Source of the DNA: Aurantiacibacter rhizosphaerae
Lineage (GTDB): Bacteria > Pseudomonadota > Alphaproteobacteria > Sphingomonadales > Sphingomonadaceae
NCBI RefSeq assembly: GCF_009807005.1
Contig: NZ_WUBR01000001.1
Span: 1,302,001 to 1,366,000, forward strand
Length of the DNA: 64,000 nt
Reading direction: 5' to 3'
Shown here in pieces: positions 1 to 14,848 of the stretch (positions within the stretch are counted from its first letter, which is position 1; each line of letters begins with the position of its first letter). Both the position numbers and the translations under genes were made by a program. The notes under the pieces are model-generated. The model worked only from the letters and a program-made list of their open reading frames with translations, did not search any database and had not been told where the DNA came from.

Positions 1-228
1 AAGCCAGCAGATCAATGGCGTGCAGGACTTTTGGGCTTTGTTCAGGCCTATGCAGGCCTCCCCGCGAATGATGATGATGTGAAAGAGGATCAGAAAAGTC
101 TTGCGGAGTTCAGAAAAGGCGCAAGTTCTCGCACCCGGAGTAAGTCTAGTCGAACCCAGCGACTTTTCGGCTTAAAGAATTGGTTGGCGCAAAATTTTCC
201 AGAGCTTATTGAAGATAAGGATAGCTGA
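1..228 (+). CDS. C-terminal fragment of an unidentified protein
   Basis: The reading frame is open from the first base of the window and stops at 226-228, so only about 75 C-terminal residues are visible and the true start lies to the left. A TTG at 31 could start an isolated 65-residue protein, but the frame continues upstream without a stop. The tail is charged, with an Arg/Ser/Lys-rich stretch followed by a short aromatic segment ending in acidic residues. I recognise no family. It belongs to the A+T-richer left island. Confidence 0.45.
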   Translation, partial: KPADQWRAGLLGFVQAYAGLPANDDDVKEDQKSLAEFRKGASSRTRSKSSRTQRLFGLKNWLAQNFPELIEDKDS

Positions 229-286
229 TCTCATACAGCCCGGCCTTTGAAGAACGGGCAACTCACGAGGTTGGGTTCGCAAGCCG

Positions 287-1012
287 CTAAGCTCGTAAAC
301 CTTCAATCGACCAGCGCACGACGTCCTCCCGGGTGTCACTTCCCCAAACGGACAAATGAGGCACATTCCCAAACCGAACGTAAAAGCCAAATGCTGAGGC
401 CTCACCACGGTGGGCTTGCCACTTGCCATGGTCTGCGCTTCGACTTTCTTGCGAAATTATTTCAATGCCAGATGCAAAGTGTTCGATATGGCCGAACGTC
501 ATCAGAAAAAGCGGTTCAATCGCTTCAATGAACATCTTATGCACCGGCTCACATAGCTTCACTGCTCCTCTATAGCCGGGATGGGTTGCAACGCCGGTCG
601 ATCTTGTAAAGGCTAGGTTGGAGGCGGGAGTAGATCGCGTAGCTACGCCCATCTCCCCGCAAAGAGCTTTAATTCGACGTTGCATCGTCGATTGGCCTTT
701 CGGCAGAATGTGCCCGCCCGGTGCCCATTCTTCATCTAAAAAGGCATTGTTTCCGCGCCGTGAAGCGTCAATGCTGTCCTGCAAGGTCGAACTCTCGGAC
801 CCTCCTGGATTTAAGCCTAAAAGATAAACCGGACCTTTCGTTAAAGTCTCATCAGAGGAGTAAAGAACCGCGCCGGGACGATTGATTAGGCCAATATCCG
901 ATAGATAAATCTCTGCGTTATCGAGCACATCACTCATATCATCGTATTCCTTCCGATTAGCCTCTGCGATCCTAGTAACTATCGAGTGCACTAGGCCCTG
1001 CTCATGTGACAC
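287..1012 (-). CDS. Protein with uracil-DNA-glycosylase-like motifs, island gene
   Basis: A 241-residue soluble protein. The start is a GTG at 1012; an AGGAG ribosome site lies at 1021-1025 (minus strand), eight bases upstream, which decides the start. Near residues 65-71 it has LLGLNPGG, resembling the GxxPG first motif of the uracil-DNA glycosylase superfamily. Close to the C-terminus it has PHLSVWG, in the place of the second HPS-type motif. These motifs are seen; the family assignment is inference and the catalytic residues are not certain. It is transcribed away from the two following genes and shares the island's lower G+C content. It could act in DNA repair or defence, or be an unrelated protein with a chance match. 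Confidence 0.55.
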   Translation of the reverse strand: MSHEQGLVHSIVTRIAEANRKEYDDMSDVLDNAEIYLSDIGLINRPGAVLYSSDETLTKGPVYLLGLNPGGSESSTLQDSIDASRRGNNAFLDEEWAPGGHILPKGQSTMQRRIKALCGEMGVATRSTPASNLAFTRSTGVATHPGYRGAVKLCEPVHKMFIEAIEPLFLMTFGHIEHFASGIEIISQESRSADHGKWQAHRGEASAFGFYVRFGNVPHLSVWGSDTREDVVRWSIEGLRA

Positions 1013-1279
1013 CGTGTAGTCTCCTGTGAGCGTGTCTCACATGAGTTGTATTTGCCGCCGTGGGACGGTTTCTCGCTTTGCCATAGAGCCTAGTGAGAGA
1101 GTTTAAACCTACCTCTAGTTCTGCCCGTTCTGCTACGTCTCGTAGCCAAGGCACGTTCGGGTAAATTGCTGCTTGGTGCGATTTGTTAACAAGAGAATGT
1201 GGGGCCACGCGCCAATGTCCCTTTAGATTTTGTTCGTGGTTTTACACTATCACGCATCCTTCCTAGATGGAGGGAAACA

Positions 1280-1759
1280 ATGCGATTATTCTTTGGCGGC
1301 TTTTTGCTTCTCTGCGCCGCAAGTCCGACACTCGCGCAAGATCAGTCATCGCGTTTCGACCTAGTATGCTTGGGTGCTGGCGCAGCAAACCGTCAAGCCA
1401 CCGCAACCGTCAACGCTTGGGACAACCAAGGAGGCTTCGGTTCGGCTAATGTTGTCGGAAATCGCTCTGTTCCCTTTGACGATCAGGTCAACCTATGGAT
1501 TGAGGGCGAAGAAGGCCGGTTGCGTATGCCGCGCGCAATGTTGCCAGCTATTCGAGGGGGAGAAGATGGGTGGTTCAGGGTATCTTCTATCGAAATCACC
1601 CCTGATGAAATTACCGGCTCCATCCGCGTCAATCCTCTCAATAATCCGAGACTTCGGATTGACCGCATGACAGGTGCTATTAGCATTTCGGGCAAGGCGG
1701 GCGATTACTCCGGTCGGTGTCAGCGATATGATCCTGAAACGGTTCAGCGGGCATTTTGA
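1280..1759 (+). CDS. Secreted protein of unknown function
   Basis: The chosen ATG at 1280 follows GGAGGGAAAC and begins a 159-residue protein with a clear signal peptide: basic start, hydrophobic core about residues 4-17, and a likely cleavage in TLA-QD near residue 20. The frame is open up to 1199, but that extension lacks a ribosome site. The mature part is about 140 residues with many Gly, Asn and Ile, and two Cys that could form a disulphide. I recognise no domain. It is followed 29 bases later by a membrane protein on the same strand, so the two are probably co-transcribed. Confidence 0.6.
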   Translation: MRLFFGGFLLLCAASPTLAQDQSSRFDLVCLGAGAANRQATATVNAWDNQGGFGSANVVGNRSVPFDDQVNLWIEGEEGRLRMPRAMLPAIRGGEDGWFRVSSIEITPDEITGSIRVNPLNNPRLRIDRMTGAISISGKAGDYSGRCQRYDPETVQRAF

Positions 1760-1788
1760 ATGTCGGCTAGGCGCGGCGGAGCGAAGCA

Positions 1789-2772
1789 ATGAATAACAAA
1801 ATGCTGGGTTTTGCGGGATCAGCCCTGCTCATTGCAGGACTTTTCTTACCCATAGCGTCGTTACCGTTCGTCGGTAATATCACGCTCATGAGCTATGGCT
1901 TCAATGTCGTAGCCGTTGGGTTGCTGATTTTGGGTCTTTTAAGCGGACTATTCGTTTGGGCCAACCGCCGCGATGTTTTGATTTGGACCGGAGGAGCAGC
2001 ACTAGCCACCTTGATCTATATGTTCGGACGGCTGCAATGGGGCATGATGCAAATGCGCTCCAATATGACGGAGCAACTGGAAGGCAATCCATTCGCGGGT
2101 TTTGCTCAAACAGCTATGGCGTCAGTGGGCTTGCAGTGGGGTTGGATTATCCTCGCCGCAGGACCGGCACTTTTGGTTTATGTTGCGGTTCAGGACCGGA
2201 AGTCGGAAGGCTCGCCTCTGTTTTCCCTAGGTGACAATGTCGAGCGTATTATTGCTGGTATCTCTGCGCTCGTCCTAGTGATAGCGCCGGTGCAGGACGC
2301 ATGGGGGTATTTGAACGCTGCCGCTGCGGACGACACCGATGCACGCTCACTCTTTTCGTCACCCGTGACACAAGCCGAAACCAGTTCCGGCCCCACCGGC
2401 GAAGAAGCAGGTTATATCCAAAACAGCCTGCGCCTTTATGAGTTCGAGGCGAAATACCACGACAGCATGTTTGAAGGCCGGGTACCTGGTGTGGACTTCA
2501 AGATCAAAAATGAGGGTGATCGCACTATCAACAGCTTGACGTTGAAGGTCATCTTCTATGACGCAGATGACCAGCCCATTGCTGAAGAACTATATTATCC
2601 GGTCAATGTTGGCGGTTTCAGCATGGGAAATGAAGACCGACCACTTCGCCCGAATTATATTTGGCAGCAGGAGAACGACCGCTTCTACATGGCGAAGAAC
2701 GTGCCCACCGAATGGAGCGAGGGAAAAGCCCGCGCAACTATAACCGACATTGAGTTTGATCCAGCCAATTGA
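1789..2772 (+). CDS. Membrane protein with C-terminal extracytoplasmic-type domain
   Basis: A 327-residue protein. About four hydrophobic segments occupy the first half (roughly residues 5-30, 32-55, 60-80 and 105-130), with another near 150-170. The last 120 residues are polar and look like a beta-sandwich binding domain, with the segment from LYEFEAKYHDS to YNIW-type aromatic residues and a statement-like pattern of alternating strands. Its start ATG lies 29 bases after the upstream secreted protein. No family is recognised. The hydrophobic half plus soluble tail suggests an envelope sensor or assembly factor, but that is only inference. Codon use is A+T richer than the core genes. Confidence 0.6.
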   Translation: MNNKMLGFAGSALLIAGLFLPIASLPFVGNITLMSYGFNVVAVGLLILGLLSGLFVWANRRDVLIWTGGAALATLIYMFGRLQWGMMQMRSNMTEQLEGNPFAGFAQTAMASVGLQWGWIILAAGPALLVYVAVQDRKSEGSPLFSLGDNVERIIAGISALVLVIAPVQDAWGYLNAAAADDTDARSLFSSPVTQAETSSGPTGEEAGYIQNSLRLYEFEAKYHDSMFEGRVPGVDFKIKNEGDRTINSLTLKVIFYDADDQPIAEELYYPVNVGGFSMGNEDRPLRPNYIWQQENDRFYMAKNVPTEWSEGKARATITDIEFDPAN

Positions 2773-2816
2773 TCCTAGCCCCGCCCAAATCGGCAGGTAA
2801 AACCGATCAATTCAGA

Positions 2817-2850
2817 TTGTGCAAAAATCTCTGTGACGCTTAGAATAAGC
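2817..2850 (+). promoter_or_regulatory. Candidate sigma-70 promoter with overlapping palindrome before the recombinase
   Basis: A TTGTGC element at 2817-2822 and TAGAAT at 2841-2846 are separated by 18 bases. The -10 box sits inside the inverted repeat GCTTA-GAA-TAAGC (2838-2850). This could be an operator or resolution subsite used by the recombinase that starts at 2918. The site is seen in sequence; the role is inferred. Confidence 0.35.
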
Positions 2851-2917
2851 TAGTCTTTTCCGTGACTTAAGTAATACCCGATGCTAGATTTCCCTTGGCA
2901 AGAGCGAGGGAAATCAG

Positions 2918-3475
2918 ATGCTTGTTGGCTATGCGAGGGTATCAACTGCCGATCAGGAGGCGGGACTTGAGGCGCAGGAACGCGATCTGCGTGCAACGGG
3001 TTGCACAAAGCTATTTAGCGAGAAGTCATCATCGGTCGCGCAGCGCGATCAACTTCCCGCCGCGCTCGATTTCGCGCGCGAGGGTGACTGCTTGGTGGTG
3101 ACTAAGCTCGACAGGCTGTGCCGGAGCGTTGCGGACCTTGTGTCGATCATGGATACCCTGCGGACCAAGGGCGTGGCGCTTCGCATCCTGTCGATGAGCC
3201 TCGACACTGCAACACCAACCGGCAAACTTATGGTGAACTTGCTCGGCTCGATAGCGGAGTTCGAGCGGGAATTGATGCTCGAACGTCAGCGCGAGGGTAT
3301 CGAGAAAGCGAAGGCCGCCGGGAAATACCGTGGCCGGGCACCCACAGCGCGCCGTATGGCCCCGCAGGTGCGAGAAATGCGAGCGGATGGTGCTCGGGCC
3401 TGCGAGATCGCCTCCCGGCTTCATATCAGCCGCAGTTCGGTTTATCGCATCTTGTCGGAAGCCGAGGCAGGATGA
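2918..3475 (+). CDS. Serine recombinase (resolvase/invertase family)
   Basis: A 185-residue small serine recombinase, the usual length for resolvases and DNA invertases. The N-terminus MLVGYARVST carries the catalytic Ser9 after Arg7. A KLDRLCRS block (about residues 67-74) contributes the arginines of the active site, and GSIAEFERELMLERQREGI (about 108-126) is the conserved region leading into helix E. The last 45 residues form a helix-turn-helix of the Hin type ending in SRSSVYRIL. It catalyses site-specific strand exchange by a 5'-phosphoseryl link. A GAGGG ribosome site precedes the ATG by seven bases. Its stop overlaps the next start as ATGA, so it heads a three-gene cassette that faces a reverse transcriptase. 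Confidence 0.93.
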   Translation: MLVGYARVSTADQEAGLEAQERDLRATGCTKLFSEKSSSVAQRDQLPAALDFAREGDCLVVTKLDRLCRSVADLVSIMDTLRTKGVALRILSMSLDTATPTGKLMVNLLGSIAEFERELMLERQREGIEKAKAAGKYRGRAPTARRMAPQVREMRADGARACEIASRLHISRSSVYRILSEAEAG

Positions 3476-3672
3476 GCAACGCCGTTCCCGCCCTGTTTGC
3501 TGCGATCACCGCCAAGCTCGAAGATTTGCACGCTATCGCTATCGAAGGGCAGCGGAGAGATAACTCGCCAGACATTCAGCGTGCGCTTGCAAGGCTGCTT
3601 CGTAGCGGAACCGGCTCAATCAACCGAACGATCAACAGCGTTGGGAAGCAGGTCGATGCCTCCGATGAGTAG
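3472..3672 (+). CDS. Small helical protein coupled to the recombinase
   Basis: A 66-residue reading frame whose ATG overlaps the recombinase stop codon (ATGA), a strong sign of translational coupling. The sequence is mostly amphipathic: a hydrophobic N-terminal helix (PALFAAITAKLEDLHAIAI), then an Arg/Gln-rich middle and a polar, acidic end. It lacks a signal peptide and cysteines. I recognise no family. Its 3' end overlaps the start of the HNH-like gene by 17 bases, so it is the middle member of a tightly packed operon. It may be an accessory DNA-binding or partner protein, but the sequence alone does not show this. Confidence 0.55.
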   Translation: MSNAVPALFAAITAKLEDLHAIAIEGQRRDNSPDIQRALARLLRSGTGSINRTINSVGKQVDASDE

Positions 3673-4102
3673 CAGTCGTGCACGTCCTTGGGAGACATCA
3701 TACAACGGATGGACTTGGGCCGAACGTATAGCCGTCAACCCGATCCAAAATGCACTGTTTCGCTCTGGTCAGCTTGCGCGGCCCACGGTCTGTTCGATTT
3801 GCGGATTTAGCGATCCGGCGCGGCTACGAACGAGCGGTTACATATTCGCGCACCTCGAACAATATGACCGGCCCGCCGAACTCTTTCCGGCTTGCAAGAA
3901 ATGTCATGCGGCTCTCCATGCACGGTTTAGTGACCCACAGCGGTGGCTATCGCGCCTGCAGAGCGTCGAAGTTCGTTCAGAGTGGCCTAGGCTGCTGTCA
4001 CTCGATCCGGCGTCTCAATGGCGATCATTTCGCCTCACCTACCCGGAGAGACTGCCAACGCCCCATGATAAACCGTCGCCCCACCTTCAATTTGATTTCT
4101 AG
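3656..4102 (+). CDS. HNH-like four-cysteine zinc protein
   Basis: The start at 3656 gives 148 residues and follows AAGCAGG; an alternative ATG lies at 3665. The frame is open further upstream, but that part overlaps the previous genes. The core reads Cys46-x2-Cys49, then His66, Tyr70 and Pro73, then Cys80-x2-Cys83-His84 and His88. This spacing fits the treble-clef fold of zinc-binding HNH endonuclease-like proteins, where CxxC pairs hold zinc and a His sits in the beta-beta-alpha-metal site. Whether it cleaves DNA is uncertain, because the usual Asn/His pair is not clear. It overlaps the preceding small gene. Its stop overlaps the stop of the convergent reverse transcriptase by four bases. 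Confidence 0.6.
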   Translation: MPPMSSSRARPWETSYNGWTWAERIAVNPIQNALFRSGQLARPTVCSICGFSDPARLRTSGYIFAHLEQYDRPAELFPACKKCHAALHARFSDPQRWLSRLQSVEVRSEWPRLLSLDPASQWRSFRLTYPERLPTPHDKPSPHLQFDF

Positions 4103-5541
4103 GCTGCTCGGTCGGTATCCACTGGACGACGGATGTGGTTGAGCAGCCGGGCACATTCTGCGATCAAATCCTCCCGGCGGTCCACGGCATCTTTATTGTC
4201 GTATTCGGGCACCAGTTCTTCCAGTGTGCGCCCTTCCCACCGGGTAATGATAAGCGCGAATACGAGGTCGCGTCCCGCTGACGCTAGTCTCTCTGGCGTC
4301 GGAGAGCGCATATACAGGGCAGCCGATAGACTGGCCCGTTCTTCTGCCTCCCGAAGTTCGCGCGTTGCCCATCGCGGGTATGCTCGATGGGACGCGGCAA
4401 CCCGACGCTGCGCTCGAAGAATTTCTTCCTCTGTCGGGCAAATCTCCCGCTCCGCAATTCTGTGCCGGTTATGCCGTTCAGGCGTCGGCTGCCAATTAAA
4501 CGCGCCGTCCGGTTCGATCTGACCGAATTGACCAACAAATGGCACTCCGGTAGAAAATCCTCCGCCTTCGGATCGGCCGGGCGGAAGGAAGTGTCCACGA
4601 TCCTTTTCCCTCAACCTCAATGACCCGTAGACCGGCTCTAAAGCCAAGGCCGTCAGGCGTTCTGCTCTCGCTTCCGCCTCCTGCTCTGAATGTCCTAGAA
4701 CAAGCAGATTGTCGGCATAGGTGATGATGTCTTGATCAAAGTCGATCTCGTTTGCGGCCAGCAGACGGCCTATCACTACCTCCCCAACAATAGGAGACGA
4801 CGCGGAACCCAACGACAAGCCATACGAGGCATTGAGGGGAGGTGCAGCACTGCGAGACCATATACGCCTTGAAACGCCGTCGCCCGCCACACGAATGGAC
4901 ATGTCCCATACCACGTGATCGACAACCGCTTCCGGTAAAGGTCGCAGTAGACCGGCCAAGCACTCTCTCGGAAGGTTCCGATAGAAGCCTTCGACATCCA
5001 GTTCGACTGCATGTGTCAGGCCGCGTGCATAGGCCGCTTCGGCAGCACTAAGGGCTGCCGGTATCCCACCGTTGAACATGAATTGGTTCGCTCGGGGTGG
5101 ATTGGTAGCGCGGATTAAATCAGCGACCATGTGCTGAAGCGCGCGCTTATGAGGTCCGTAATTGTCAACGAGACGTGTTCGGCCATCCTTTTCGATTTCC
5201 CGTTGCTGCATCGGCTCGAAGCATGGAGAGAATGGATCAAGCCGGTCAGCGAGTGCTTGCAGAGATTGGCGCGAGGCTTCGCGAATAAGCTTGGCTTTCA
5301 AGACCCCACGATAAGCATGGAAAAGGCCAAACTCATCGAAGCGCAGTATCTTACGAACCAGGCTATGTTGTTGCCGCCGCGATAGTCCGGCCAGTTGAGA
5401 GCAAATGTGCTTCCATCGAGACCGCTGTTCTGCAAGATCGGCAACCAAAGTAGAGTTGGTCCGTGCGAACTCGCGATATGCCCGCACGCCAAACGAAACG
5501 ATTGGCGTTTGCCGTATTGAAGATCGCGAAGAAATCGTCAT
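4099..5541 (-). CDS. Reverse transcriptase with YADN catalytic box
   Basis: A 480-residue RNA-directed DNA polymerase of the retroviral type. The fingers start near residue 110, with KRALQHMV at 132-139. Motif A is ELDVEGFY with Asp182; motif B is GLSLGSASSP at 241-250; motif C is ITYADNLLVLG with Tyr275-Ala-Asp277-Asn278; a motif D/E-like REKDRGHFLPPG follows at 311-322. The last 150 residues are helical and rich in Arg and Glu, with no HNH or maturase domain visible. Asn replaces the second Asp of the usual YxDD, encoded by AAT at 4708-4710. It most resembles the retron or 'unknown group' defence reverse transcriptases rather than a group II intron protein, but I cannot place the subgroup. 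The ribosome site is weak. Confidence 0.85.
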   Translation of the reverse strand: MTISSRSSIRQTPIVSFGVRAYREFARTNSTLVADLAEQRSRWKHICSQLAGLSRRQQHSLVRKILRFDEFGLFHAYRGVLKAKLIREASRQSLQALADRLDPFSPCFEPMQQREIEKDGRTRLVDNYGPHKRALQHMVADLIRATNPPRANQFMFNGGIPAALSAAEAAYARGLTHAVELDVEGFYRNLPRECLAGLLRPLPEAVVDHVVWDMSIRVAGDGVSRRIWSRSAAPPLNASYGLSLGSASSPIVGEVVIGRLLAANEIDFDQDIITYADNLLVLGHSEQEAEARAERLTALALEPVYGSLRLREKDRGHFLPPGRSEGGGFSTGVPFVGQFGQIEPDGAFNWQPTPERHNRHRIAEREICPTEEEILRAQRRVAASHRAYPRWATRELREAEERASLSAALYMRSPTPERLASAGRDLVFALIITRWEGRTLEELVPEYDNKDAVDRREDLIAECARLLNHIRRPVDTDRAA

Positions 5542-5700
5542 TCGGCCTTTACTATCGTCAACAGAGTTAAGAGCGACCTAACCGCGTCTAGATGATCTCC
5601 CGACGCTACACCGTCGAGCCGCTAAACTCATTAGCCGTTTCAATCCCCGTAACCGGCTTAAAACCTGCAAGCTCGGAGGCTGGGCGATGAATTTTCAATG
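5542..5700 (-). other. Leader region upstream of the reverse transcriptase with two small hairpins
   Basis: This stretch lies immediately 5' of the reverse transcriptase gene, where retrons place their template RNA. It contains CGACG-N6-CGTCG (5601-5605 with 5612-5616) and GCTAA-ACTCA-TTAGC (5621-5625 with 5631-5635). No open frame in it is convincing. A retron-type or other non-coding RNA is possible, but I did not find the long msd stem or flanking a1/a2 repeats, so this is weak evidence. Confidence 0.25.
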
Positions 5701-5763
5701 GGATAGTCTAGGCGCATATAACCGACGATTGACAAAAAATATGGCTACCAACGGATGGGTAAA

Positions 5764-5787
5764 TGGTCCTAATCTTGGTCCTAACGT
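5764..5787 (+). repeat. Tandem 12-bp repeat at the island edge
   Basis: Two adjacent 12-bp units begin TGGTCCTAA (5764-5775 and 5776-5787); the first nine bases are identical. They lie between the reverse transcriptase leader and the core aldehyde dehydrogenase gene, where base composition changes. Such repeats can be arm-type sites for a phage-like integrase, but no integrase is in view. Confidence 0.5.
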
Positions 5788-5836
5788 AACCGAATTTGGA
5801 CTAGAAAAATGGCTGAAACCCTTGCAACTTGTTGCA

Positions 5837-5863
5837 TGGCGCGCCTTCCTGCTGGGCGCGCCA
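5837..5863 (-). terminator. Strong inverted repeat after the aldehyde dehydrogenase gene
   Basis: TGGCGCGCC (5837-5845) and GGCGCGCCA (5855-5863) form a perfect 9-bp stem with a 9-base loop. It lies 20 bases beyond the stop codon of the minus-strand aldehyde dehydrogenase. No T-tract follows in that direction, so termination efficiency is uncertain. It may also mark the island junction. Confidence 0.4.
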
Positions 5864-5883
5864 ATCCTTTGTGGCAAAGCCGA

Positions 5884-7263
5884 TTATGGCTGGCCGACGA
5901 AGATACTCTTCACGTTGACGAATTCCTTCACGCCGAACCGGCCGTGCTCCCGGCCATAGCCGGAGTTCTTCACGCCGCCGAAGGGCATCGAAGGGTCCGC
6001 CACGCCATAGACGTTCACGAACACCATTCCGGTGTCGAAATGTTTTGATGCCAGTTCGATCGCGCGATCTTCATTGGTGGAGAGAATGCCGCCGCCAAGG
6101 CCATAGCGGCTATCATTGGCAAGGCGCATCGCATCCTCGTCATCCTTCGCCTTGATGACGGAGGCGACGGGGCCGAAGATCTCGTCGTCATAGGCGGGCT
6201 GGCCCGGCTTCACATTGGAAAGAACGGTGGCGGGGTAAAAGGCACCATCACCATCCGGCACCTTGCCGCCGCATTCGATCTTTGCGCCGTTCTTCACGCT
6301 CTTTTCCACCTGTTCGTGAACGGTATCGCGCAAATCCGTGCGGGCCATGGGGCCAAGATCTGTGTCTTCGTCATTGGGATTGCCGGTCTTCACCCCTTCG
6401 AAGCGGGCGACGAACCTTTTCAGGAATTCGTCATACACCTTCTCCGTCACGATGAAGCGCTTGCCGTTGATGCAGGTTTCACCGTTGTTATACAGCCGCG
6501 CCTGCGAGCAGACCTCTACCGCTGTATCGAGATCGGCATCTTCCAGCACGAGATAGGCATCGTTGGAGCCCAGCTCCAGCACGGTGGGCTTCAGCACCTT
6601 TGCCGCGGCCTGCGCCACATGCTTGCCCGCATCGTCCGATCCGGTGAGGGTTACCCCGCGCACCTTGTCATGCTCGATAATCGCATCCGACGTATCGTGG
6701 TCTATCACCAGCACGGTGAACAGGTTCTTCGGCAGGCCACCCTTTTCGAAAATGTCCGCGATCATCAGGCCGCTGCCGGTGCAGTTGGATGCGTGCTTCA
6801 GCAGCACGCCATTGCCGGCCATCAAGCTGGCGATGGCATAGCGGATCACCTGATAGGCGGGGAAATTCCACGGCTGGATACCGTACACCACACCGATGGG
6901 CGAATAGGTAACGATGCCGCGGCCTGCGTTGGATGGGTCGCGCGGTTCCGACGCCAGTTCCTTGGGCCCGGTCTGCGCGGTGTAATCGCAAATGGCGGCG
7001 CAAAGCTCCACCTCGTCACGGCTATCCTTGATCAGCTTGCCGACCTCGTCCGTCATCAGCTGGGCCAGCTCTTCCTTGTTATCACGCAGCGCCTGGCCAA
7101 GGCCCTTGATCACCTCGGCCCGCTCCTCGGCGGATTTCAGCTTCCACTTCGTGAATGCCTCGTGACAGGCCTCAACCTTGGCGCTGGCAGCATCGAGATC
7201 GATTTCCTCGTAGGTGTCGAGATTCTTTCCATTCGCAGGATTGACGGTTGTGATCGTGCTCAT
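5884..7263 (-). CDS. NAD(P)-dependent aldehyde dehydrogenase, succinate-semialdehyde type
   Basis: A 459-residue aldehyde dehydrogenase with PWNFP at 131-135, general base Glu230 in VLELGSND, and nucleophile Cys264 in NNGETCINGKR. The C-terminus has the usual PFGGVKNSGYGRE block. The length and missing N-terminal extension match the YneI/Sad branch that oxidises succinate semialdehyde and similar short aldehydes in the cytosol. The Ser-Asn after ELG, where most members have Gly-Gly or Gly-Lys, is a small oddity. It stands alone, with an inverted repeat after its stop and a 350-base gap before it. It is the first core gene to the right of the accessory island. Confidence 0.85.
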   Translation of the reverse strand: MSTITTVNPANGKNLDTYEEIDLDAASAKVEACHEAFTKWKLKSAEERAEVIKGLGQALRDNKEELAQLMTDEVGKLIKDSRDEVELCAAICDYTAQTGPKELASEPRDPSNAGRGIVTYSPIGVVYGIQPWNFPAYQVIRYAIASLMAGNGVLLKHASNCTGSGLMIADIFEKGGLPKNLFTVLVIDHDTSDAIIEHDKVRGVTLTGSDDAGKHVAQAAAKVLKPTVLELGSNDAYLVLEDADLDTAVEVCSQARLYNNGETCINGKRFIVTEKVYDEFLKRFVARFEGVKTGNPNDEDTDLGPMARTDLRDTVHEQVEKSVKNGAKIECGGKVPDGDGAFYPATVLSNVKPGQPAYDDEIFGPVASVIKAKDDEDAMRLANDSRYGLGGGILSTNEDRAIELASKHFDTGMVFVNVYGVADPSMPFGGVKNSGYGREHGRFGVKEFVNVKSIFVGQP

Positions 7264-7615
7264 TTTTATGGGTGTCCTTCAAACATTAGCGTTTGATTGA
7301 AAGACGCTTCGCGGCGGCGTTAGGTCCGGCATGGTGGCCAGTGCGCGCGCCATCAGCGATGGATTGAGCGGCACGCCTAGGACTAGCCGCCCCGCTGTCG
7401 GGATTCTTGACACAGGCGGCCGGCGTTTAGGTTTTGAAAACCATCGTAAGGCGCACAAATGCGTGCATCGGCAAAACTGGCACGGGCCGTGCAATGTTAG
7501 TGGTGTAATCAAGAGTTCTTCGAATGAGGCGGGGCCGATCCAACGGTCCCCAACCAAGTCTCCCGGCTCCGCCTCCCCCGAAGAAACCTTCTCCCCTTAA
7601 AATCGCAGAGAAGTA
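7264..7615. other. 352-base intergenic region
   Basis: This gap holds the minus-strand leader of the aldehyde dehydrogenase on its left and the end of the SRAP gene on its right. The only structure I see is a 13-bp palindrome, GCACGG-G-CCGTGC, at 7480-7492. Open frames here have no ribosome sites or recognisable products. Confidence 0.5.
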
Positions 7616-8233
7616 CTAGCGCCTGCCGGCCCAGGGCTCGTCCGTTCGCGTCACCTGCATGTCACCGCTATAAGGGCGGCACAGCTGATACGCATCGTTC
7701 GGCGTGCCCTGCAACCATTGTTGCCAGTCAGCCTGCGGCAGGATCACGGGCATCCTGTCATGCACGCCCTGCACGTGGATGCAGGCCTCGGTCATCACCA
7801 TCGTATAGGCCTCGCCAAATTCGGCACTGTCGCGCCAGAAACCGGCGACGGCCATCAGATCGCTGTCGGGCAGGGAGAACCACGTGCGCGTCTTGCCTCC
7901 TTTTGGCCCTTCCGCCTCTGCAAAGGCGGACACCGGGATAAGGCAGCGGCGCGTCTTGAAACTGGCCGCCCAGAATGAACTGCCAAGCTTGTCCGTCCGC
8001 GCGTTATTGATCGGTTTGGGCTTAAGCGGCTGGCCCTTTGCCCCGGTGCGATTGAGCGGGAAGCCCCAGCTCATCTGCGCCAGCCGCCCTTCGGCCAGCA
8101 CCATGCCGGGATAGCCGGGATACACCATTTCCGGCGCATTGCTGCCCGGGGAAACGGAGAGATCCTGCGCAATCGCATCGAAGAAATGCGCAACCTCGTC
8201 CTGCGATTTGGACATGCGATAAAGGTTGCACAT
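7616..8233 (-). CDS. yedK: SRAP-domain protein (YedK/HMCES family)
   Basis: A 205-residue SOS-response-associated peptidase family protein. Members form a thiazolidine cross-link with abasic sites in single-stranded DNA and shield them. The signature residues are present: Cys2 exposed after Met removal, Asn77 in INNARTD, Glu106 in SAFAEAEG, and His158 in VHDRMPVIL. The third residue is Asn where most relatives have Gly. Its start is just six bases after the stop of the upstream secreted-protein gene, so it may be co-transcribed. No SOS (LexA) box is evident in the short gap. Confidence 0.9.
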   Translation of the reverse strand: MCNLYRMSKSQDEVAHFFDAIAQDLSVSPGSNAPEMVYPGYPGMVLAEGRLAQMSWGFPLNRTGAKGQPLKPKPINNARTDKLGSSFWAASFKTRRCLIPVSAFAEAEGPKGGKTRTWFSLPDSDLMAVAGFWRDSAEFGEAYTMVMTEACIHVQGVHDRMPVILPQADWQQWLQGTPNDAYQLCRPYSGDMQVTRTDEPWAGRR

Positions 8234-8239
8234 GGCCGG

Positions 8240-9139
8240 TCAGCTGCCTTCGTCGACAAAGGGAACGGGCGGCGCGGCCATACCGTCCGCCATCAGCCAC
8301 ACGATATCGCCGGTCACCACGCCCAGCCGCATCGGCAATTGGCTGGAAATAAAGCTATGGATTACCGTGGGCGCAGTGCCCTGTTCGAACTGCGTCAAAT
8401 AGACCTTGTTCGAAAGATCGGCCTCATCGCCATTCCACGTCACCACTTCGCAGGTGTCGGTCACGATTTCAGGATCGCCAACCTGGCCAAATTCATCAAA
8501 GCTGACGCGGTAATGCTTGCCCAGGGGCACGGCCCCTTCGGCAATCGGGCCATTCAGGACATAGGCGACAAGCTTGCCATCGTCGCTCGGCGGCAGGACG
8601 ATGGGAATGTAGCTGACCGAGTGATTGGCTTTCGGGTCGGCAGGCTCTCCATCAAGGCAATAGCTGGCAGACGGGGCGGATATCACCGCGCGCGGCGCGA
8701 CGTATTTTGCCCGCGCCATCTGTTCCGCGATGCCAGTTAGGGCAGGGGCGGATGCGGCATCGTGCAGGGTTTCGGACAGGATCTGGCCCTGTGCAATTTC
8801 GTACTCGCCAAGGGCCACCAGCGGGGCCTGTGCGCCTTCGCCGCGCGCCGCTACGATCGTAACGTTCCATACGCCCAGCGTATCTGCGGGGAAGGCAACT
8901 GCGCCGCGATAGCCATCGCCAAATTCGCCGCCGGTCATCCCGGCATATTGCCGCTGCGCAATGGCGCTTGCCATCTGCACATCGGCCATGATGCGTGCGG
9001 TGGCCTCGGCCTCTCTTGCCTGCGCGCTGCGATCCGCCAGATCGGCGGGCATAGCGGGCTCGGCTGGCGGGGCGTCCTGCGCATGCGCCACCAGGGGCGC
9101 GGCAAGAGCGAGGGTTGTGGCTGCAAGGATGCGGATCAT
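8240..9139 (-). CDS. Secreted protein of unknown function
   Basis: A 299-residue protein with a standard signal peptide: Arg3, a hydrophobic Leu/Ala core, and cleavage in AHA-QD near residue 20. An Ala/Glu-rich helical segment (about 35-65) precedes a larger domain with two Cys (SYCLDG and DTCEVV) that may form a disulphide. I recognise no enzyme motif. It reads as a periplasmic or surface-associated protein conserved among sphingomonads, which is inference. It is followed closely by the SRAP gene on the same strand. Confidence 0.7.
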   Translation of the reverse strand: MIRILAATTLALAAPLVAHAQDAPPAEPAMPADLADRSAQAREAEATARIMADVQMASAIAQRQYAGMTGGEFGDGYRGAVAFPADTLGVWNVTIVAARGEGAQAPLVALGEYEIAQGQILSETLHDAASAPALTGIAEQMARAKYVAPRAVISAPSASYCLDGEPADPKANHSVSYIPIVLPPSDDGKLVAYVLNGPIAEGAVPLGKHYRVSFDEFGQVGDPEIVTDTCEVVTWNGDEADLSNKVYLTQFEQGTAPTVIHSFISSQLPMRLGVVTGDIVWLMADGMAAPPVPFVDEGS

Positions 9140-9213
9140 GAAAGCTCCAGGATTTCTATCGTCTGGAGGATAGAGAGATTTTCCTGAACGGAAACGGACC
9201 CTGCTTTCAAAGA

Positions 9214-9239
9214 AATTGGGCGCCCGCAGGCGCCCAATT
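9214..9239 (-). terminator. Rho-independent terminator of grxD
   Basis: An 11-bp perfect stem (AATTGGGCGCC with GGCGCCCAATT) closes a four-base loop. Read on the minus strand it is followed by TCTTTG and lies three bases after the glutaredoxin stop codon. Confidence 0.75.
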
Positions 9240-9241
9240 GT

Positions 9242-9583
9242 TCAGGAGGCCTTTTCGACCTTCTTTTCATCCATCAACTGCTGCAATTCGCCAGCCTCGA
9301 ACATCTCCATCATGATGTCGCTGCCGCCGACGAATTCACCCTTCACGTAAAGCTGGGGAATGGTCGGCCAGTCGGAGTAGCTCTTGATGCCCTGGCGGAT
9401 TTCCTGATCCTGCAATACATCGACGCTGCCAAAGGCGACACCGCAATGATCGAGGATGGAAACCGCCCGGTTGGAAAAACCGCACTGCGGGAAGAGCGGG
9501 GTGCCCTTCATGAACAGGACGACATCTTTGTCGCCCACGATCTTTGCAATGCGTTCATTGGTTTCAGCGCTGTTGTCGCTCAT
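9242..9583 (-). CDS. grxD: Monothiol glutaredoxin, CGFS type
   Basis: A 113-residue Grx4-family protein with the active-site motif Cys34-Gly-Phe-Ser37. The WPTIPQLYVKGEFVGGSDI block binds glutathione and a bridging [2Fe-2S] cluster. These proteins carry iron-sulphur clusters between assembly machinery and targets, usually as a hetero-complex with BolA. A bolA gene lies 36 bases upstream on the same strand, which fits that partnership. A perfect-stem terminator follows the stop. Confidence 0.95.
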   Translation of the reverse strand: MSDNSAETNERIAKIVGDKDVVLFMKGTPLFPQCGFSNRAVSILDHCGVAFGSVDVLQDQEIRQGIKSYSDWPTIPQLYVKGEFVGGSDIMMEMFEAGELQQLMDEKKVEKAS

Positions 9584-9619
9584 CTATCCCACCACGTCGT
9601 TAGAAAAAATTGATGACAG

Positions 9620-9853
9620 TCAGTTGGGAACGCTGGTGTGCAGTTGCAAGGCATGAAGCTCTCCGCCCATGCGACCGCCCAGTGCTGCGAACACCATCTT
9701 GTGCTGCTGCACGCGGTTTTTCCCGGCAAACTCGGCGGAGGTGACCCGCGCAAGCCAATGGTCGTTATCGTCGGCCAGGGCCTCTATCTCGACTGCGGCA
9801 TCGGGAATGGCGGCCTTGATCAGCGCCTCGATCTGTTCGGCTGGCATGGGCAT
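9620..9853 (-). CDS. bolA: BolA-family protein
   Basis: A 77-residue BolA/IbaG protein with the class II KH-like fold. The conserved stretch FAGKNRVQQHKMVFAALGGRMGGELHALQL includes the invariant His near residue 51 that ligates the shared [2Fe-2S] cluster with monothiol glutaredoxin. It sits directly upstream of grxD, the usual arrangement in alphaproteobacteria. The start ATG at 9853 is followed by a second Met two codons later. Confidence 0.92.
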   Translation of the reverse strand: MPMPAEQIEALIKAAIPDAAVEIEALADDNDHWLARVTSAEFAGKNRVQQHKMVFAALGGRMGGELHALQLHTSVPN

Positions 9854-9878
9854 CAGGATTGTCCTTGCAGGGTAATGA

Positions 9879-10202
9879 TCAGGATTCGCTCATGAACTGG
9901 CGGCGGGCTTCGATAGCCTTTTCTTCCAGCTTGGCGCGCACGCCGGCTTCGTCAACGTCGCAGCCGGCCTGTGTCAGATCGCCCAGCACCTTGCGGATCA
10001 CGTCCTCGTCACCGGCTTCCTCGAAATCGGCCTGCATGACGGCCTTCTTGTAGGCGTCGGTTTCTTCGGGCGTCAGGTCCATCAATCCGGCGGCCCATTC
10101 GCCAACCAGACGGTTGCGGCGCGCGGCCACCTTGAAGGCGGTCTCTTCGTCCAGCGCATATTTGGCTTCTTCGCCGCGTTCGCGGTCCTTGAAATTGGTC
10201 AT
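9879..10202 (-). CDS. F1-ATPase inhibitor subunit zeta (DUF1476)
   Basis: A 107-residue protein starting MTNFKDRERGEEAKYALDEE. This is the alphaproteobacterial DUF1476 family, whose Paracoccus member is the zeta subunit that blocks reverse rotation of F1-ATPase through its N-terminal inhibitory helix. The N-terminal inhibitory region and the four-helix body (NRLVGEWAAGLMDLT and onwards) are both present. I chose the ATG at 10202; the frame runs on to 10277, but that part overlaps leuD. It lies between leuD and bolA on the same strand. Confidence 0.9.
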   Translation of the reverse strand: MTNFKDRERGEEAKYALDEETAFKVAARRNRLVGEWAAGLMDLTPEETDAYKKAVMQADFEEAGDEDVIRKVLGDLTQAGCDVDEAGVRAKLEEKAIEARRQFMSES

Positions 10203-10243
10203 CGGATTATTCCTTGCTAAGTGGAAAGCGTAAAATTGAAATG

Positions 10244-10849
10244 TCAGGCTGCCGCTGCCGTGCCGCGAACCAGCCATGGCTTGTCTGCCGACAGGCGGTT
10301 TTCGTAGCGTGAGATGGCATCATCGCGCGTTAGCGTAAGGCCGACTTCGTCCAGCCCTTCGATCAGGCAATGCTTGCGGAAGGGGTCGATCTCGAAAGTG
10401 AAACGATCCTGAAATGGCGTGGTGACGGTTTGCGCGTCCAGATCGATGGTGATCGGATCGGTCTTCGCCACTTCCAGCAATCGGTCCACCTGCGCCTGCG
10501 GCAGCGCCACGGTCAGGATGCCGTTCTTGAAGGCGTTGCCTGCAAAAATGTCGGAAAAGCTGGGGGCGATCACGGCGCGGATGCCAAGGTCCAGCATGGC
10601 CCACGCGGCATGTTCGCGGCTGGAACCACAGCCGAAATTGTCTCCGGCCACAAGGATGGGTGCGCCGGAAAATTCCTCGCTATCGAAAACATTGTCCGGA
10701 TCGTTGGCCCGCACGGATTCGAACGCGCCAGCGCCTAGGCCTTCGCGGCTGGTGGTTTTCAGCCAGCGCGCGGGGATGATCAGGTCCGTATCCACGTTCT
10801 TGCGACCGAACGGGATCGCCCTGCCTTCTACGGTCTGAACCTTCTCCAT
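10244..10849 (-). CDS. leuD: 3-isopropylmalate dehydratase, small subunit
   Basis: A 201-residue LeuD, the swivelling-domain subunit that pairs with LeuC to isomerise 2- and 3-isopropylmalate in leucine synthesis. Landmarks are the N-terminal [36 protein letters not shown], and [20 protein letters not shown]. The ATG at 10849 overlaps the stop of the small upstream gene (TGATG); a TTG one codon earlier is less likely. leuC lies upstream on the same strand but is separated by a DNA glycosylase and a small membrane protein. Confidence 0.97.
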
Positions 10850-11007
10850 CAATCCGTCTCCGGCTTTTCGCCGCTGGGGATGGGGCCGGGCTGTGTCGGC
10901 TCGTTCTTCTTCTTGCGACGGTTGGCGTAAAGCATGGCTGCGGCAATAGCGGCAGAGCCGATGGCCCCGGCGGCAATGGCCGCTGTCTTTTGAATACGGT
11001 CAGTCAT
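10849..11007 (-). CDS. 52-residue single-helix membrane protein next to leuD
   Basis: A short frame starting [19 protein letters not shown]. One Ala/Ile-rich transmembrane helix (about residues 9-26) is followed by Tyr-Ala-Asn-Arg-Arg-Lys-Lys-Lys, which sets the cytoplasmic side, and a Pro/Glu-rich tail. Its TGA stop shares a base with the leuD ATG, so translation is probably coupled. The codon pattern is typical of the neighbouring genes. I know no function. It could tether or stabilise a partner, or simply be a small conserved membrane peptide. Confidence 0.7.
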
Positions 11008-11046
11008 AATAGTTCAAATGCTCTTGTGATGGCTACGTTGCAAGAT

Positions 11047-11541
11047 TCAGCGAAGAAAATGCTGCAATTTGTCCCACTCTCGCGCTTTTTCATCGAATGT
11101 CATCGCGGCATGGGCCGGGCTGGAGGAGGGGAGGGTGACGCATCTGGCGCCCGATTGCGCCAGTTGCGGCCTGCCGATCGCTTCCGATTTCTTTCCGTTG
11201 AAAGCTACGGCCCGCAATTTCGGCAGGTGGGAGACAAGATCGCAAAGGTCGGTCGCTTCCACCTTGCGGATGCTGGCATCCAGGCTGCCGCTGCGCTCTG
11301 CCGATTTGACGGCATCCCACAGGCCAACCTTGTGGCGAAGCAGCGCCCCGGTCCGTTCATCATAGGGAAGCGATACGAGCGGAGCGCCGATAACCCGCTC
11401 CATCAGATGCCAGAAACGGTTCTGCGGATGCGCGTAATATTGTCCGGCCGACAAAGATTTCTCCCCCGGCAGGCTGCCAAGGATCAGCAATTGCGTATCG
11501 TCCTGAACGATGGGCGCGAAAGATGTCTTACGCTGGCTCAC
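11047..11541 (-). CDS. DNA-deoxyinosine (hypoxanthine) glycosylase, UDG superfamily
   Basis: A 164-residue protein with the family signature [29 protein letters not shown] (about 18-46), which includes the GSxPG first motif and the [10 protein letters not shown] segment. The end of the fold carries PSSSPAHA in the place of the second HPS-type motif. Family VI enzymes remove hypoxanthine from deaminated adenine, and weakly uracil. The length fits the family. It starts 14 bases inside the leuC 3' end, so it is translated as part of the leu operon. Confidence 0.88.
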
Positions 11542-12970
11542 GCGTCAGTTCGCGGACATCGGTGAGGCGTCCGGTCACGGCGGCGGCGGCGGCCATTGCC
11601 GGGCTGACCAGATGCGTGCGGGCACCCGGCCCCTGTCTGCCCACGAAATTGCGATTGCTGGTGGAGGCGCTGCGTTCGCCTGATGGCACCTTGTCCGGGT
11701 TCATGCCGAGACAGGCGGAGCAGCCCGGTTCTCGCCATTCCAGTCCGGCATCGGTGAACACCTTGTCCAGCCCCTCAGCCTCTGCCTGCATTTTCACAAG
11801 GCCAGAGCCGGGCACGACGATGGCCCATTTCACATTGTCCGCCTTGCGGCGTCCGCGCAGCACTTCTGCTGCGGCGCGCAGATCTTCGATGCGGCTGTTG
11901 GTGCAGCTGCCGATGAAGATGTTCTGCACTTCCACGTCCTGCATCCGCGTGCCCGGCGTCAGGCCCATGTATTCAAGGCTGGCGCGGGCGGCGTCCTGCT
12001 TTGACGGATCGTCATAGCTTTCAGGAGCCGGCACGGTGCCGCCGATGGGCACCACGTCCTCCGGGCTGGTGCCCCAGGTAACGGACGGCTCCACATCGGC
12101 CGCGTTGATCACGACGGAGCGATCGAACTTCGCATCGGGATCGGTGTAGAGCGTTTTCCAATAGGCGACGGCATCGTCCCATTCCTCTGCCTGCGGGGCG
12201 AGGGGACGGCCCTTGATATAGGCAAAGGTGGTTTCATCCGGCGCGATCAGGCCGCCGCGTGCGCCGGCTTCGATGCTCATGTTGCAGACGGTGAGGCGCG
12301 ATTCCACGCTCATGTCCTCAAATGCCTTGCCGCGATATTCGATCACGTGGCCGGTGCCGCCGGCGGTGCCGACAACGCCGATGATATGCATGATCAGATC
12401 CTTGGCCGTGATGCCAAGGCCCAGCTCTCCATCCACGCGCACTTCCATGGTCTTGGACGGGCGCAGCAGCAGGGTTTGCGTGGCGAGCACATGCTCCACC
12501 TCGCTGGTGCCGATACCGAAGGCCCAGGCGCCAAGCCCGCCGTGGCAGGCGGTGTGGCTGTCGCCGCAGACGATCGTCGTGCCGGGCAGGGAGAAGCCCT
12601 GTTCCGGGCCGACAACGTGCACGATGCCCTGCTGCGCCGAAGTCTCGTTGAAATAGCGCACGCCGAATTCCGGCGCGTTGCGTTCCAGCGCGGCCAGCTG
12701 ATCGCGGCTTTCCTTGTCCGCGATGGGGATGCGCTTCCCATCTGCATCAAGGCGCGCGGTGGTGGGCAGGTTATGGTCAGGAACGGCCAGGGTCAGCTCA
12801 GGGTGGCGCACGGTGCGGCCCTTCATGCGCAGCGCCTCGAAAGCCTGCGGGCTGGTAACCTCGTGAACGAGGTGGCGATCGATAAAAATCAGGCAGGTGC
12901 CATCATCGCGCCGTTCGATCACGTGGGCGTCAAAAATCTTTTCGTAGAGTGTGCGGGGTTTGCTGGCCAT
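11528..12970 (-). CDS. leuC: 3-isopropylmalate dehydratase, large subunit
   Basis: A 480-residue LeuC of the aconitase family. The three [4Fe-4S] cysteines are in IGSCTNSR and [12 protein letters not shown]. Other landmarks are [16 protein letters not shown] near the N-terminus and [31 protein letters not shown] took the ATG at 12970 ([16 protein letters not shown]) because this is the family's usual start; the frame extends to 13009, but there is no ribosome site there. It heads the operon leuC, DNA glycosylase, small membrane gene, leuD. Confidence 0.97.
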
Positions 12971-13068
12971 GCCGCGCAGATAGCGCGCGTATCGTTTTGA
13001 GCCAAGCATTACGAAAAAATGCTTCTTATCGTCTTGGAAAGTTAACCTTGGGCGTCTAACTTACACAA

Positions 13069-13473
13069 ATGTCAGCCATACCCTTTGCCATCCCGATCAA
13101 GATCCTGCCCGATGATATCGATTTCATGGGGCATGTGAACAATTCCCGCTATCTCAACTGGGTGCAGGATGTGGTGCTGCAGCACTGGCAGAAACTCGCC
13201 CCGGCAGACGAGGTGGCGAGCAAGGCGTGGGTCGCGCTGAAGCACGAGATTACCTATCGCCGTCCCGCCTTCCTGGAGGATGACGTGATAGCCGAAACCG
13301 TGCTGGAAAAGATCAAGGGTGCACGCAGTTTCTACAACACGGTGATTCGCCGCGGTGAAGAGGTGCTGGCCGAGGTGCAGAGCATGTGGTGCTGCATCGA
13401 TGCTGCAACCTTGCGGCCCGCACGCATTGATCAGGACGTGGCGGAACGCTGCTTTGGTCTGCCGCGAACATAG
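13069..13473 (+). CDS. Acyl-CoA thioesterase, 4HBT/FadM hotdog family
   Basis: A 134-residue hotdog thioesterase with the YbgC/FadM signature DDIDFMGHVNNSRYLNWVQD (about 15-34), where the Asp before the GHVNN block is the usual catalytic residue. The strand KAWVALKHEITYRRPAFLEDDV follows as in other members. It likely hydrolyses short or medium acyl-CoA in the cytosol. The gene is divergent from leuC and has no clear ribosome site before the ATG, so the message may be leaderless. A carotenoid ketolase follows on the same strand. Confidence 0.88.
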   Translation: MSAIPFAIPIKILPDDIDFMGHVNNSRYLNWVQDVVLQHWQKLAPADEVASKAWVALKHEITYRRPAFLEDDVIAETVLEKIKGARSFYNTVIRRGEEVLAEVQSMWCCIDAATLRPARIDQDVAERCFGLPRT

Positions 13474-13533
13474 CGCCAGCGCCGTACGGACCACGGGACG
13501 CGTTTGCTTGAGGCGGATTTGCGCCTACAGCGC

Positions 13534-14307
13534 ATGGTGATGACGAAAACCGTTCAGCAACCAGCGCCGGGCCTTGGCCGCAGAGCGCAGGCGGCGATTG
13601 GCCTTGGCCTTGCCGCGCTGATTTCCGGTGCGTGGATTGCCTTGCACATTTACGCGATCTTCGTGTTCGAGCTTACCTGGGCCAGCCTGCCGCTGGGCAT
13701 TGGGATCGCGGTGCTGCAATGCTGGCTTTCGGTCGGCGTGTTCATCATCAGCCATGATGCCATGCACGGTTCGCTGGCGCCGGGCTGGGCGCGGCTGAAC
13801 GGGGCGATCGGCGGCGGGCTGTTGTTTCTTTACGCAGGCTTTGGCTGGCGCAAGATGCGCGATGCGCATTTCGATCATCACATCCATGCCGGCCGCGAAG
13901 GCGATCCCGATTTCGACACCGCCAACCCCAGCCATTTCTGGCGCTGGTACACCACATTCCTGATGCGCTATTTCGGCTGGCGCTCCATCGTCTATGTTTC
14001 CACCCTGGTGACGATCTACTGGCTGGTGGTGGGCGTGCCGATGGTGCAGATCGTGCTGGTGTTCGGCCTTCCGGCCATCGCATCCAGCCTGCAGCTGTTT
14101 TATTTCGGCACCTATCGCCCGCACCGGCATGCGGATGACGGGTTTGGAGACAGGCACAACGCCCGGTCCGATGATTTCTCGCCGCTGGTCAGCCTCGCAA
14201 CCTGCTTCCATTTCGGCTATCATCACGAACATCACATCTATCCGCAAACGCCATGGTGGGCCTTGCCACGCCGCCGCCGTGCGACTGCGGAAACGATACG
14301 GAGCTGA
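13534..14307 (+). CDS. crtW: Beta-carotene 4-ketolase
   Basis: A 257-residue membrane di-iron oxygenase of the fatty-acid-desaturase type that adds 4-keto groups to beta-ionone rings. The histidine boxes are H74DAMH78, H112-x2-HH116 in AHFDHHIHAGREGDPDF, and HHEHH at 230-234, followed by IYPQTPWWALP, all diagnostic of CrtW. Several hydrophobic helices lie between them. The start is uncertain: ATG at 13534, ATG at 13540 or TTG at 13504, none with a strong ribosome site. crtZ follows four bases after the stop. With CrtZ it would convert beta-carotene to astaxanthin-type xanthophylls. Confidence 0.95.
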   Translation: MVMTKTVQQPAPGLGRRAQAAIGLGLAALISGAWIALHIYAIFVFELTWASLPLGIGIAVLQCWLSVGVFIISHDAMHGSLAPGWARLNGAIGGGLLFLYAGFGWRKMRDAHFDHHIHAGREGDPDFDTANPSHFWRWYTTFLMRYFGWRSIVYVSTLVTIYWLVVGVPMVQIVLVFGLPAIASSLQLFYFGTYRPHRHADDGFGDRHNARSDDFSPLVSLATCFHFGYHHEHHIYPQTPWWALPRRRRATAETIRS

Positions 14308-14311
14308 CAAG

Positions 14312-14812
14312 ATGAGCGTAGCTGCAATCATCCTCACCGTGGCAGGTGCGGTCGTGTTCATGGAGGTGTTCGCCTGGTGGGCGCACAAATACGTGATGCA
14401 TGGCTGGGGCTGGGGCTGGCATCGCGATCACCATGAACCGCATGACAATGTGCTGGAAAAGAACGATCTTTTCGCCGTCGTCTTTGGCAGCATCGTAGTC
14501 GCCATGTTCGCAATCGGCTATTACGTGTCCGATTTCCTGTGGTGGTTCGCGATGGGGATTACCGTTTACGGCCTGATCTACACCTTCATCCATGATGGAC
14601 TGGTGCATCAGCGTTATTTCAAATGGGTGCCAAAGCGCGGCTATGCCAAGCGGCTGGTGCAGGCTCACAAGCTGCACCATGCCACCGTGGGCAAGGAAGG
14701 CGGGGTCAGTTTCAGCTTTGTCTTCGCGCGGGACCCCGCCAGCCTGAAGGCGGATCTGAAAAAGCAACGCGAAGCCGGTATCGCCGTCGTAAGAGACAGC
14801 GTGGGCGCGTGA
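14312..14812 (+). CDS. crtZ: Beta-carotene hydroxylase
   Basis: A 166-residue CrtZ that hydroxylates C-3 of beta-ionone rings. The di-iron histidine motifs are HKYVMH, HRDHH, HDGLVHQRY and HKLHHA, in the family order. Hydrophobic segments lie at about 2-20 and 50-85. The ATG at 14312 follows GGAG at 14300-14303, inside the end of crtW, so the pair is translated together. The frame is open upstream but that part overlaps crtW. No other carotenoid genes lie in the window. Confidence 0.96.
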   Translation: MSVAAIILTVAGAVVFMEVFAWWAHKYVMHGWGWGWHRDHHEPHDNVLEKNDLFAVVFGSIVVAMFAIGYYVSDFLWWFAMGITVYGLIYTFIHDGLVHQRYFKWVPKRGYAKRLVQAHKLHHATVGKEGGVSFSFVFARDPASLKADLKKQREAGIAVVRDSVGA

Positions 14813-14848
14813 TACGCTGATCAGCGCGCCCGTTTCAGCGAAACCGAT

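Follow-up and report, generated by a model that had tools for sequence, protein, structure and literature searches.

A bacterial reverse transcriptase facing a serine recombinase operon forms a recurrent cassette with a possible role in phage defense

A four-gene block at the right end of a tRNA-Arg island

The window analyzed here, the whole 64,000-nucleotide stretch of Aurantiacibacter rhizosphaerae DNA, carries near its left end a compact block of four genes (Table 1). Those for a small serine recombinase (RES), a 66-aa protein (SML), and an HNH-like protein (HNH) overlap on the forward strand by 4 nt (RES/SML) and 8 nt (SML/HNH), the HNH start being the ATG at 3665 that we chose within a frame open from 3497, and a reverse transcriptase (RT) gene converges on them. 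A preliminary description had reported a recombinase, a 66-residue protein, and a four-cysteine HNH-like protein overlapping each other, with the last stop lying over that of a convergent RT by four bases; all of these reading frames and overlaps are present, the convergent overlap comprising nt 4099 to 4102. The A+T-richer setting that it had noted was likewise borne out, with G+C of 0.51 to 0.59 over positions 1 to 6000 and 0.58 to 0.64 over 6001 to 16000 in 1-kb windows.

Table 1. Features of the four-gene block, its island, and related loci (positions are those of the window unless a locus is named)
Feature	Position	Strand	Remarks
Conserved box, CGTGACTT core, upstream of RES	2856..2868	+	likely promoter or operator
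Palindrome/hairpin directly 5' of RES, over likely ribosome-binding site	2887..2915	+	z -3.59 in the window
RES, small serine recombinase, 185 aa	2918..3475	+	PF00239 and HTH_7
SML, 66-aa protein	3472..3672	+	adjoins RES and HNH in 17/20 RES-HNH loci
HNH-like protein, 145 aa	3665..4102	+	phrog_2340, invariant Cys/His
RT, reverse transcriptase, 480 aa, YADN motif	4099..5541	-	RVT_1, PADLOC generic RT
attR, right island edge	5847..5864	+	18-bp exact copy of 3' end of tRNA-Arg(tct)
attL	L035 5160-5177, left of the window		18 bp at tRNA-Arg(tct) end
tRNA-Arg(tct) gene	L035 5100-5176
C5-cytosine methylase adjoining NaeI-type restriction enzyme	L035 8659-10570, just left of the window		same island
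Drt3a/Drt3b pair	L034 6807-8042 and 8035-10011		contig C2, own genome; PADLOC
327-aa protein preceding RES	1789-2772; L029 4333-5319
~470-aa protein after HNH	L036 4610-5980; L042 7385-8794; L043 8412-9845; L070 3981-5441; L071 3895-5337
1471-aa protein upstream of RES	L046 11860-16275; L076 1-4192		weak NACHT/AAA matches

The block forms the right end of a ~12.7-kb tyrosine-integrase island at a tRNA-Arg gene, with a DUF6538 tyrosine integrase just inside the left island end. Of 11 loci from the same genus, retrieved by way of the neighboring dehydrogenase gene, 9 are empty sites, their island flanks lying at most 0.45 kb apart; at L052 and L060 the 1.5 kb examined did not reveal the left flank. 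Other cargo includes a C5-cytosine methylase, a NaeI-type restriction enzyme, and a GmrSD_N protein.

A close RT family keeps the same layout

Matches to the RT at E ≤ 1e-3 occurred in 10 of 396 genomes sampled across the order, the strong ones in the genome of the window, G371, G377, and G319. A second search gave five loci, of which three matched the contigs of G371, G377, and G319 in length and two (L046 and L050) were new, making six distinct genomes, and a profile search of 149 genomes (20 with a match) added a seventh close RT, L183, in an identical layout. The named relatives belong to the Sphingomonadales (Aurantiacibacter, Novosphingobium). Co-occurrence across genomes, which the preliminary description had raised as a check, is conserved: the RT lies tail to tail with HNH, with RES beyond, in 7/7 close-RT genomes at RT identities down to 35%. 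The facing ends of HNH and RT range from a 4-nt overlap (window and L046) to a 28-nt gap at L048, the one close-RT locus in which SML went undetected. Known defense families lie near 5 of the 7 close RTs as a raw count; at L183, a sixth close RT, SIR2-like and Vsr-like genes were recognized by eye, and L050 has only a nuclease.

Between the window and L046, also from Aurantiacibacter, DNA is alignable only from ~2841 to 5540, a span that begins at the RES promoter and ends where the RT starts. Within it, dN/dS is 0.24 for RT, 0.17 for HNH, 0.21 for SML, and 0.10 for RES, values indicating that the four-gene block is under purifying selection. Whether the genes are one system or met by chance had been left undecided in the preliminary description; the layout kept in all seven genomes, together with the sharp edges of the alignable block, favors one system. 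In its own genome the RT is present in a single copy. The window RT had no match at 1e-5 in phages and plasmids, and there were no viral contigs with RT relatives among the pattern matches.

The RT falls outside the known classes examined

RVT_1 was the sole Pfam domain in the RT (E 2.6e-6; at 27.8 bits slightly below the cut-off of 29.6, which it reached in the genome search), and only generic RT models of PADLOC recognized it (PDLC01136, 6.6e-9; PDLC01607, 2.7e-4). Residue D182 and the YADN motif are invariant in the six aligned RTs (6/6), with YADN also present in L183, and the second Asp of the metal motif is Asn. A six-row RT profile matched RT-Cas1 (7kft, 1.1e-6) and G2L4 (9d4s, 8e-5) in the PDB. 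The nearest folds to an AlphaFold model of the RT (pLDDT 68) were the G2L4 and GsI-IIC RTs (E ~1e-6), a match that, with an rmsd of ~10 and TM of 0.40 to 0.53, is good for fold class only; a retron complex with an HNH nuclease (9n69, 1.2e-3) was among the weaker fold matches. By these comparisons, the nearest relatives of the RT are CRISPR-type and group II-like RTs. In contrast to RT-Cas1, the window RT has no Cas1 domain; it differs from both in being partnered with a recombinase, and it carries YADN where G2L4 has YIDD. The second D of YIDD is reported to face outward in the G2L4 structure (PMC12337344), which makes enzymatic activity of a YADN protein plausible.

Membership among group II intron, retron, diversity-generating retroelement, and CRISPR-associated RTs was considered and rejected. 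As a group II intron RT or maturase, the protein scored about 18.5 to 18.6 bits against the curated cut-off of 300 for TIGR04416, and no intron RNA family appeared in Rfam scans; a tree, as proposed in the preliminary description, set it apart from the sampled group II intron proteins. Retron-Eco8, retron IA, and further RT-nuclease systems resemble the window unit in having a nuclease gene alongside the RT. However, the window RT lies outside the sampled retron clade, its gene is convergent, and no msr-msd-type RNA was found. No retron model matched at E ≤ 1, the clade is separate from RTs matching retron models, and Rfam gave no match to msr-msd RNA near the RT, although unfamiliar RNAs could escape such a scan. 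The RT leader (5542-5846) folds like its shuffles (z -0.05), and six upstream regions yielded no convincing alignment of a conserved noncoding RNA (ncRNA). No UG, Drt, or Abi model of PADLOC matched the window RT at E ≤ 1; its relatives are weakly similar to UG17 and UG4 models, L026 matching UG17 at only 4.1e-5. RTs of the DRT/UG type are nevertheless like the window RT in being lone RTs in defense-type islands. A diversity-generating retroelement was rejected because the longest direct repeats in 1000-7300 are only 25 to 33 nt at ~63 to 76% identity, and a CRISPR-associated RT because a Cas1 fusion is lacking and array-like repeats are absent from the same region. The genome also holds a second RT system, an adjacent Drt3a and Drt3b (PADLOC 8e-122 and 1.6e-198; Table 1).

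RES, its leader, SML, and HNH

RES has the Resolvase catalytic domain (PF00239, E 8e-42 over residues 3-137) and C-terminal helix-turn-helix (HTH_7, 5.5e-6 at 148-180) of a small serine recombinase in Pfam and matches the DNA invertase family phrog_125 at 5.8e-59. Pin/Hin-type recombinases share the complete Resolvase domain and HTH, but RES sits in a fixed operon with SML and HNH, and a local inverted site pair was not found. We rejected RES as an invertase of local sites, as a long inverted repeat pair is absent from 1000-7300, and ruled it out as mobilizer of the island, whose tyrosine integrase and tRNA-Arg att sites account for mobility. PinQ, a serine invertase, is reported to inhibit a phage (PMC12529663).

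Upstream of RES is a conserved box that is likely a promoter or operator. Its core, CGTGACTT, precedes the start of RES by 50 to 59 nt in 8 of the 18 loci examined, and a different conserved box lies there in 4/18. It occurs once near RES in the window; at L029 a second copy lies ~3 kb downstream. A palindrome follows directly before RES (Table 1), with no further copy at ≤3 mismatches in the window or its genome. Compared with dinucleotide shuffles, the last 42 nt of the RES leaders fold with a mean z of -1.90 over 18 loci (p < 0.05 in 6/18), against -0.19 for 60 control leaders of other open reading frames (p < 0.05 in 4/60). L039, L043, and L077 had been excluded from this set beforehand and L068 had no start; starts were assigned by rule, possibly wrongly for L078. 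Stem sequences vary among loci, which would fit a hairpin formed in RNA; a protein site that changes from locus to locus is a possible alternative.

The best Pfam match of SML reached only E 0.037, and PADLOC, NCBIfam, and PHROGs gave none at E ≤ 1. For HNH, phrog_2340 ("endonuclease") matched at 2e-5, and the motifs CxxC, HxExY, and CxxCHxxxHxR, which include all four cysteines, are invariant in 14 aligned homologues. Pfam offered no HNH match and nothing better than E 0.6, no convincing match was found in the PDB, and the predicted structure is poor (pLDDT 47). HNH is a candidate nuclease, weakly supported as such by the phrog_2340 match.

The RES-SML-HNH operon recurs with and without the RT

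The order sample of 396 genomes contained HNH homologues in 22 and SML homologues in 21, and the class sample HNH in 4 of 385. Among 28 mapped HNH loci, a RES-type recombinase adjoins HNH in 20 (at L077 only a distant one, E 1.5e-23), with SML detected in 17 of these. Of the remaining eight, L039 has a larger serine recombinase and DUF2924 nearby, L068 has a recombinase match ~2.6 kb away, and L041, L067, L069, L072, L074, and L075 have no recombinase among the genes shown around HNH. All strong SML places (15/15) fall within HNH loci that carry a RES-type recombinase, and of the 10 weak ones, 9 have a larger serine recombinase as a neighbor, with an E of only 0.0014 at L100. These weak homologues are at L096, L098-L102, and L104-L106, the first with DUF2924 too. 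Given these locus counts, SML and HNH go with serine recombinases whether or not an RT is present, and RES-SML-HNH is a recurrent operon in Sphingomonadales in either case. The framing of the preliminary description, an RT with a nuclease partner, consequently shifts, as HNH and SML accompany recombinases, often without an RT.

Most RES-SML-HNH loci have no RT, which is therefore not needed for them, and between the window and one of these (L036) only ~2841 to 4100 is alignable. Replication-initiator-like proteins follow HNH in RT-less L073 and L076 (6.8e-4 and 1.5e-5). A tRNA-Gly(ccc) gene lies near the operon in four genomes (L026, L036, L071, L076) and tRNA-Lys(ttt) in three (L044, L045, L078), and these tRNA-adjacent loci recur with tyrosine integrases.

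Other neighbors recur as well (Table 1). A family of ~470-aa proteins without a known domain lies 3' of HNH in five RT-less loci. The same 327-aa protein precedes RES in the window and at L029, with a dN/dS of 0.09. A 1471-aa protein is encoded upstream of RES at L046 and L076, which come from two genera and whose DNA is 83% identical over 4.2 kb.

Loci with an RT are spread across the RES tree (5 changes against a shuffled mean of 5.3) and across the HNH tree (6 against 5.3), and the two trees, built with one of the two HNH copies at L070, conflict at the starred forks. Alleles of these genes are, by this comparison of trees, exchanged while the RES-SML-HNH/RT layout stays, which argues against tight coevolution of one HNH with one RT.

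A serine recombinase accompanies most of a wider RT clade

In a maximum-likelihood tree of RTs sampled across the class, L029, L030, and L032 group with the window family (100/98). The L029 RT is encoded downstream of RES-SML-HNH in the same orientation; HNH is missing from L030 and L032, where a recombinase of the Resolvase plus HTH_62 type lies directly downstream of the RT. At L184, from the later 149-genome profile search, a resolvase lies 0.78 kb downstream, and the order at L030, L032, and L184 is a tyrosine integrase-like gene, RT, and recombinase. The clade comprises 14 rows (100/98), or 15 (97/95) once ten weaker matches are added; the fifteenth is the broken fragment L163, and the other nine were placed elsewhere in the tree.

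A serine recombinase lies within 1.5 kb of the RT in 11 of the 15 clade members, three of them without HNH. The others are L186 (one at 1.8 kb, with open reading frames between), L163 (none in 1.5 kb), L187 (~5 kb from a RES-SML-HNH operon), and L185 (which starts at a contig end). The same test found a serine recombinase in 0/34 comparison RT loci, ~30 distinct RTs with mostly 1.5-kb flanks and some shorter, and a recombinase in 0/23 of the weaker profile-search RT loci, a set that also contains L186, L187, and L163 with different ids. The RT-recombinase link thus holds for every member of the close family but loosens toward the base of the clade. In the mostly open-access literature, as far as it was accessible, no study pairing an RT with a serine recombinase was found, and neither "resolvase" nor "HNH" occurs in the accessible main text of PMC8934634 and PMC4244168.

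Discussion

The arrangement seen in the window, RES-SML-HNH opposite an RT, is a recurrent one; no intron RNA was detected for this RT, and most of its clade sits beside serine recombinases. We tentatively read the cassette, with confidence just short of even, as an accessory, probably anti-phage, DRT-like RT system coupled to a recombinase module; this function is inferred, and island context makes phage defense its probable purpose. Under attack on the cell, the RT would make DNA, working like a DRT, and HNH would cut DNA as an effector or processing nuclease. RES with SML could move or switch the locus. By masking the ribosome-binding site, the leader hairpin would hold RES-SML-HNH expression down until some trigger opened it, and transfer of the whole island between hosts would fall to its tyrosine integrase. 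We counted for this reading the layout in 7/7 genomes, the block edges, the dN/dS values, the recombinase link, the restriction-bearing island, the defense families near close RTs, and the leader hairpin. Against it we counted the association of HNH and SML with recombinases regardless of the RT, the unclustered RT loci in the RES and HNH trees, the replication-initiator-like proteins after HNH, the ncRNA that was not found, and the Asn in place of the second Asp. A tyrosine recombinase beside DRT10 is reported to be dispensable for defense (PMC12632851), which we also counted against this reading.

An alternative, which we consider rather unlikely but worth weighing, is that RES-SML-HNH and the nearby RT are a mobile-element backbone that serves the maintenance, replication, or spread of integrative elements. 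The roles this would entail, dimer resolution and homing by HNH with no host defense, are doubtful to the same degree. The recurrence with tyrosine integrases by tRNA-Gly and tRNA-Lys genes is consistent with such a backbone, as are the allele shuffling between loci, the company of SML and HNH with DUF2924 and larger serine recombinases, and the gene order at L030, L032, and L184; the replication-initiator-like proteins at the two RT-less loci fit it too. The window island, however, is already equipped with a tyrosine integrase and att sites, and most RES-SML-HNH loci lack the RT.

A second alternative, improbable on present evidence, is a retroelement: the RT would copy an RNA, its DNA product would be inserted or exchanged at a fixed site by the serine recombinase, and HNH would nick the target or prime. 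This could explain why the RT clade lies mostly beside serine recombinases even where HNH is absent, and why the block moves as a discrete unit. The related RT branch, moreover, includes RT-Cas1, which is reported to integrate copied nucleic acid (PMC11014452). Yet the RT is single copy in its own genome, terminal repeats or paired recombination sites were not found, and neither Rfam scans nor folding of the RT leader gave a template RNA. That the RT and recombinase operon are unrelated neighbors that met in the island is very improbable: the operon does occur without the RT and four clade members (L185, L186, L187, L163) lack an adjacent recombinase, but the layout is shared by 7/7 close RTs down to 35% identity, and a recombinase lies near 11/15 clade RTs against 0/34 comparison loci.

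Non-intron bacterial RTs have repeatedly been found to act in immunity or repair through unexpected chemistry. The class-specific PADLOC models miss the present clade, which typically has a serine recombinase next to it. It is a long shot that this is an unrecognized bacterial RT lineage with the serine recombinase as a dedicated partner for site-specific insertion or exchange of RT-made DNA; if true, it would be a reverse-transcription-plus-recombination system, either a bacterial recombinase retroelement or a defense that writes DNA into a fixed site. Seven naturally occurring versions of this small four-gene cassette are at hand, so that whether the recombinase beside the RT is a working part or luggage is now testable.
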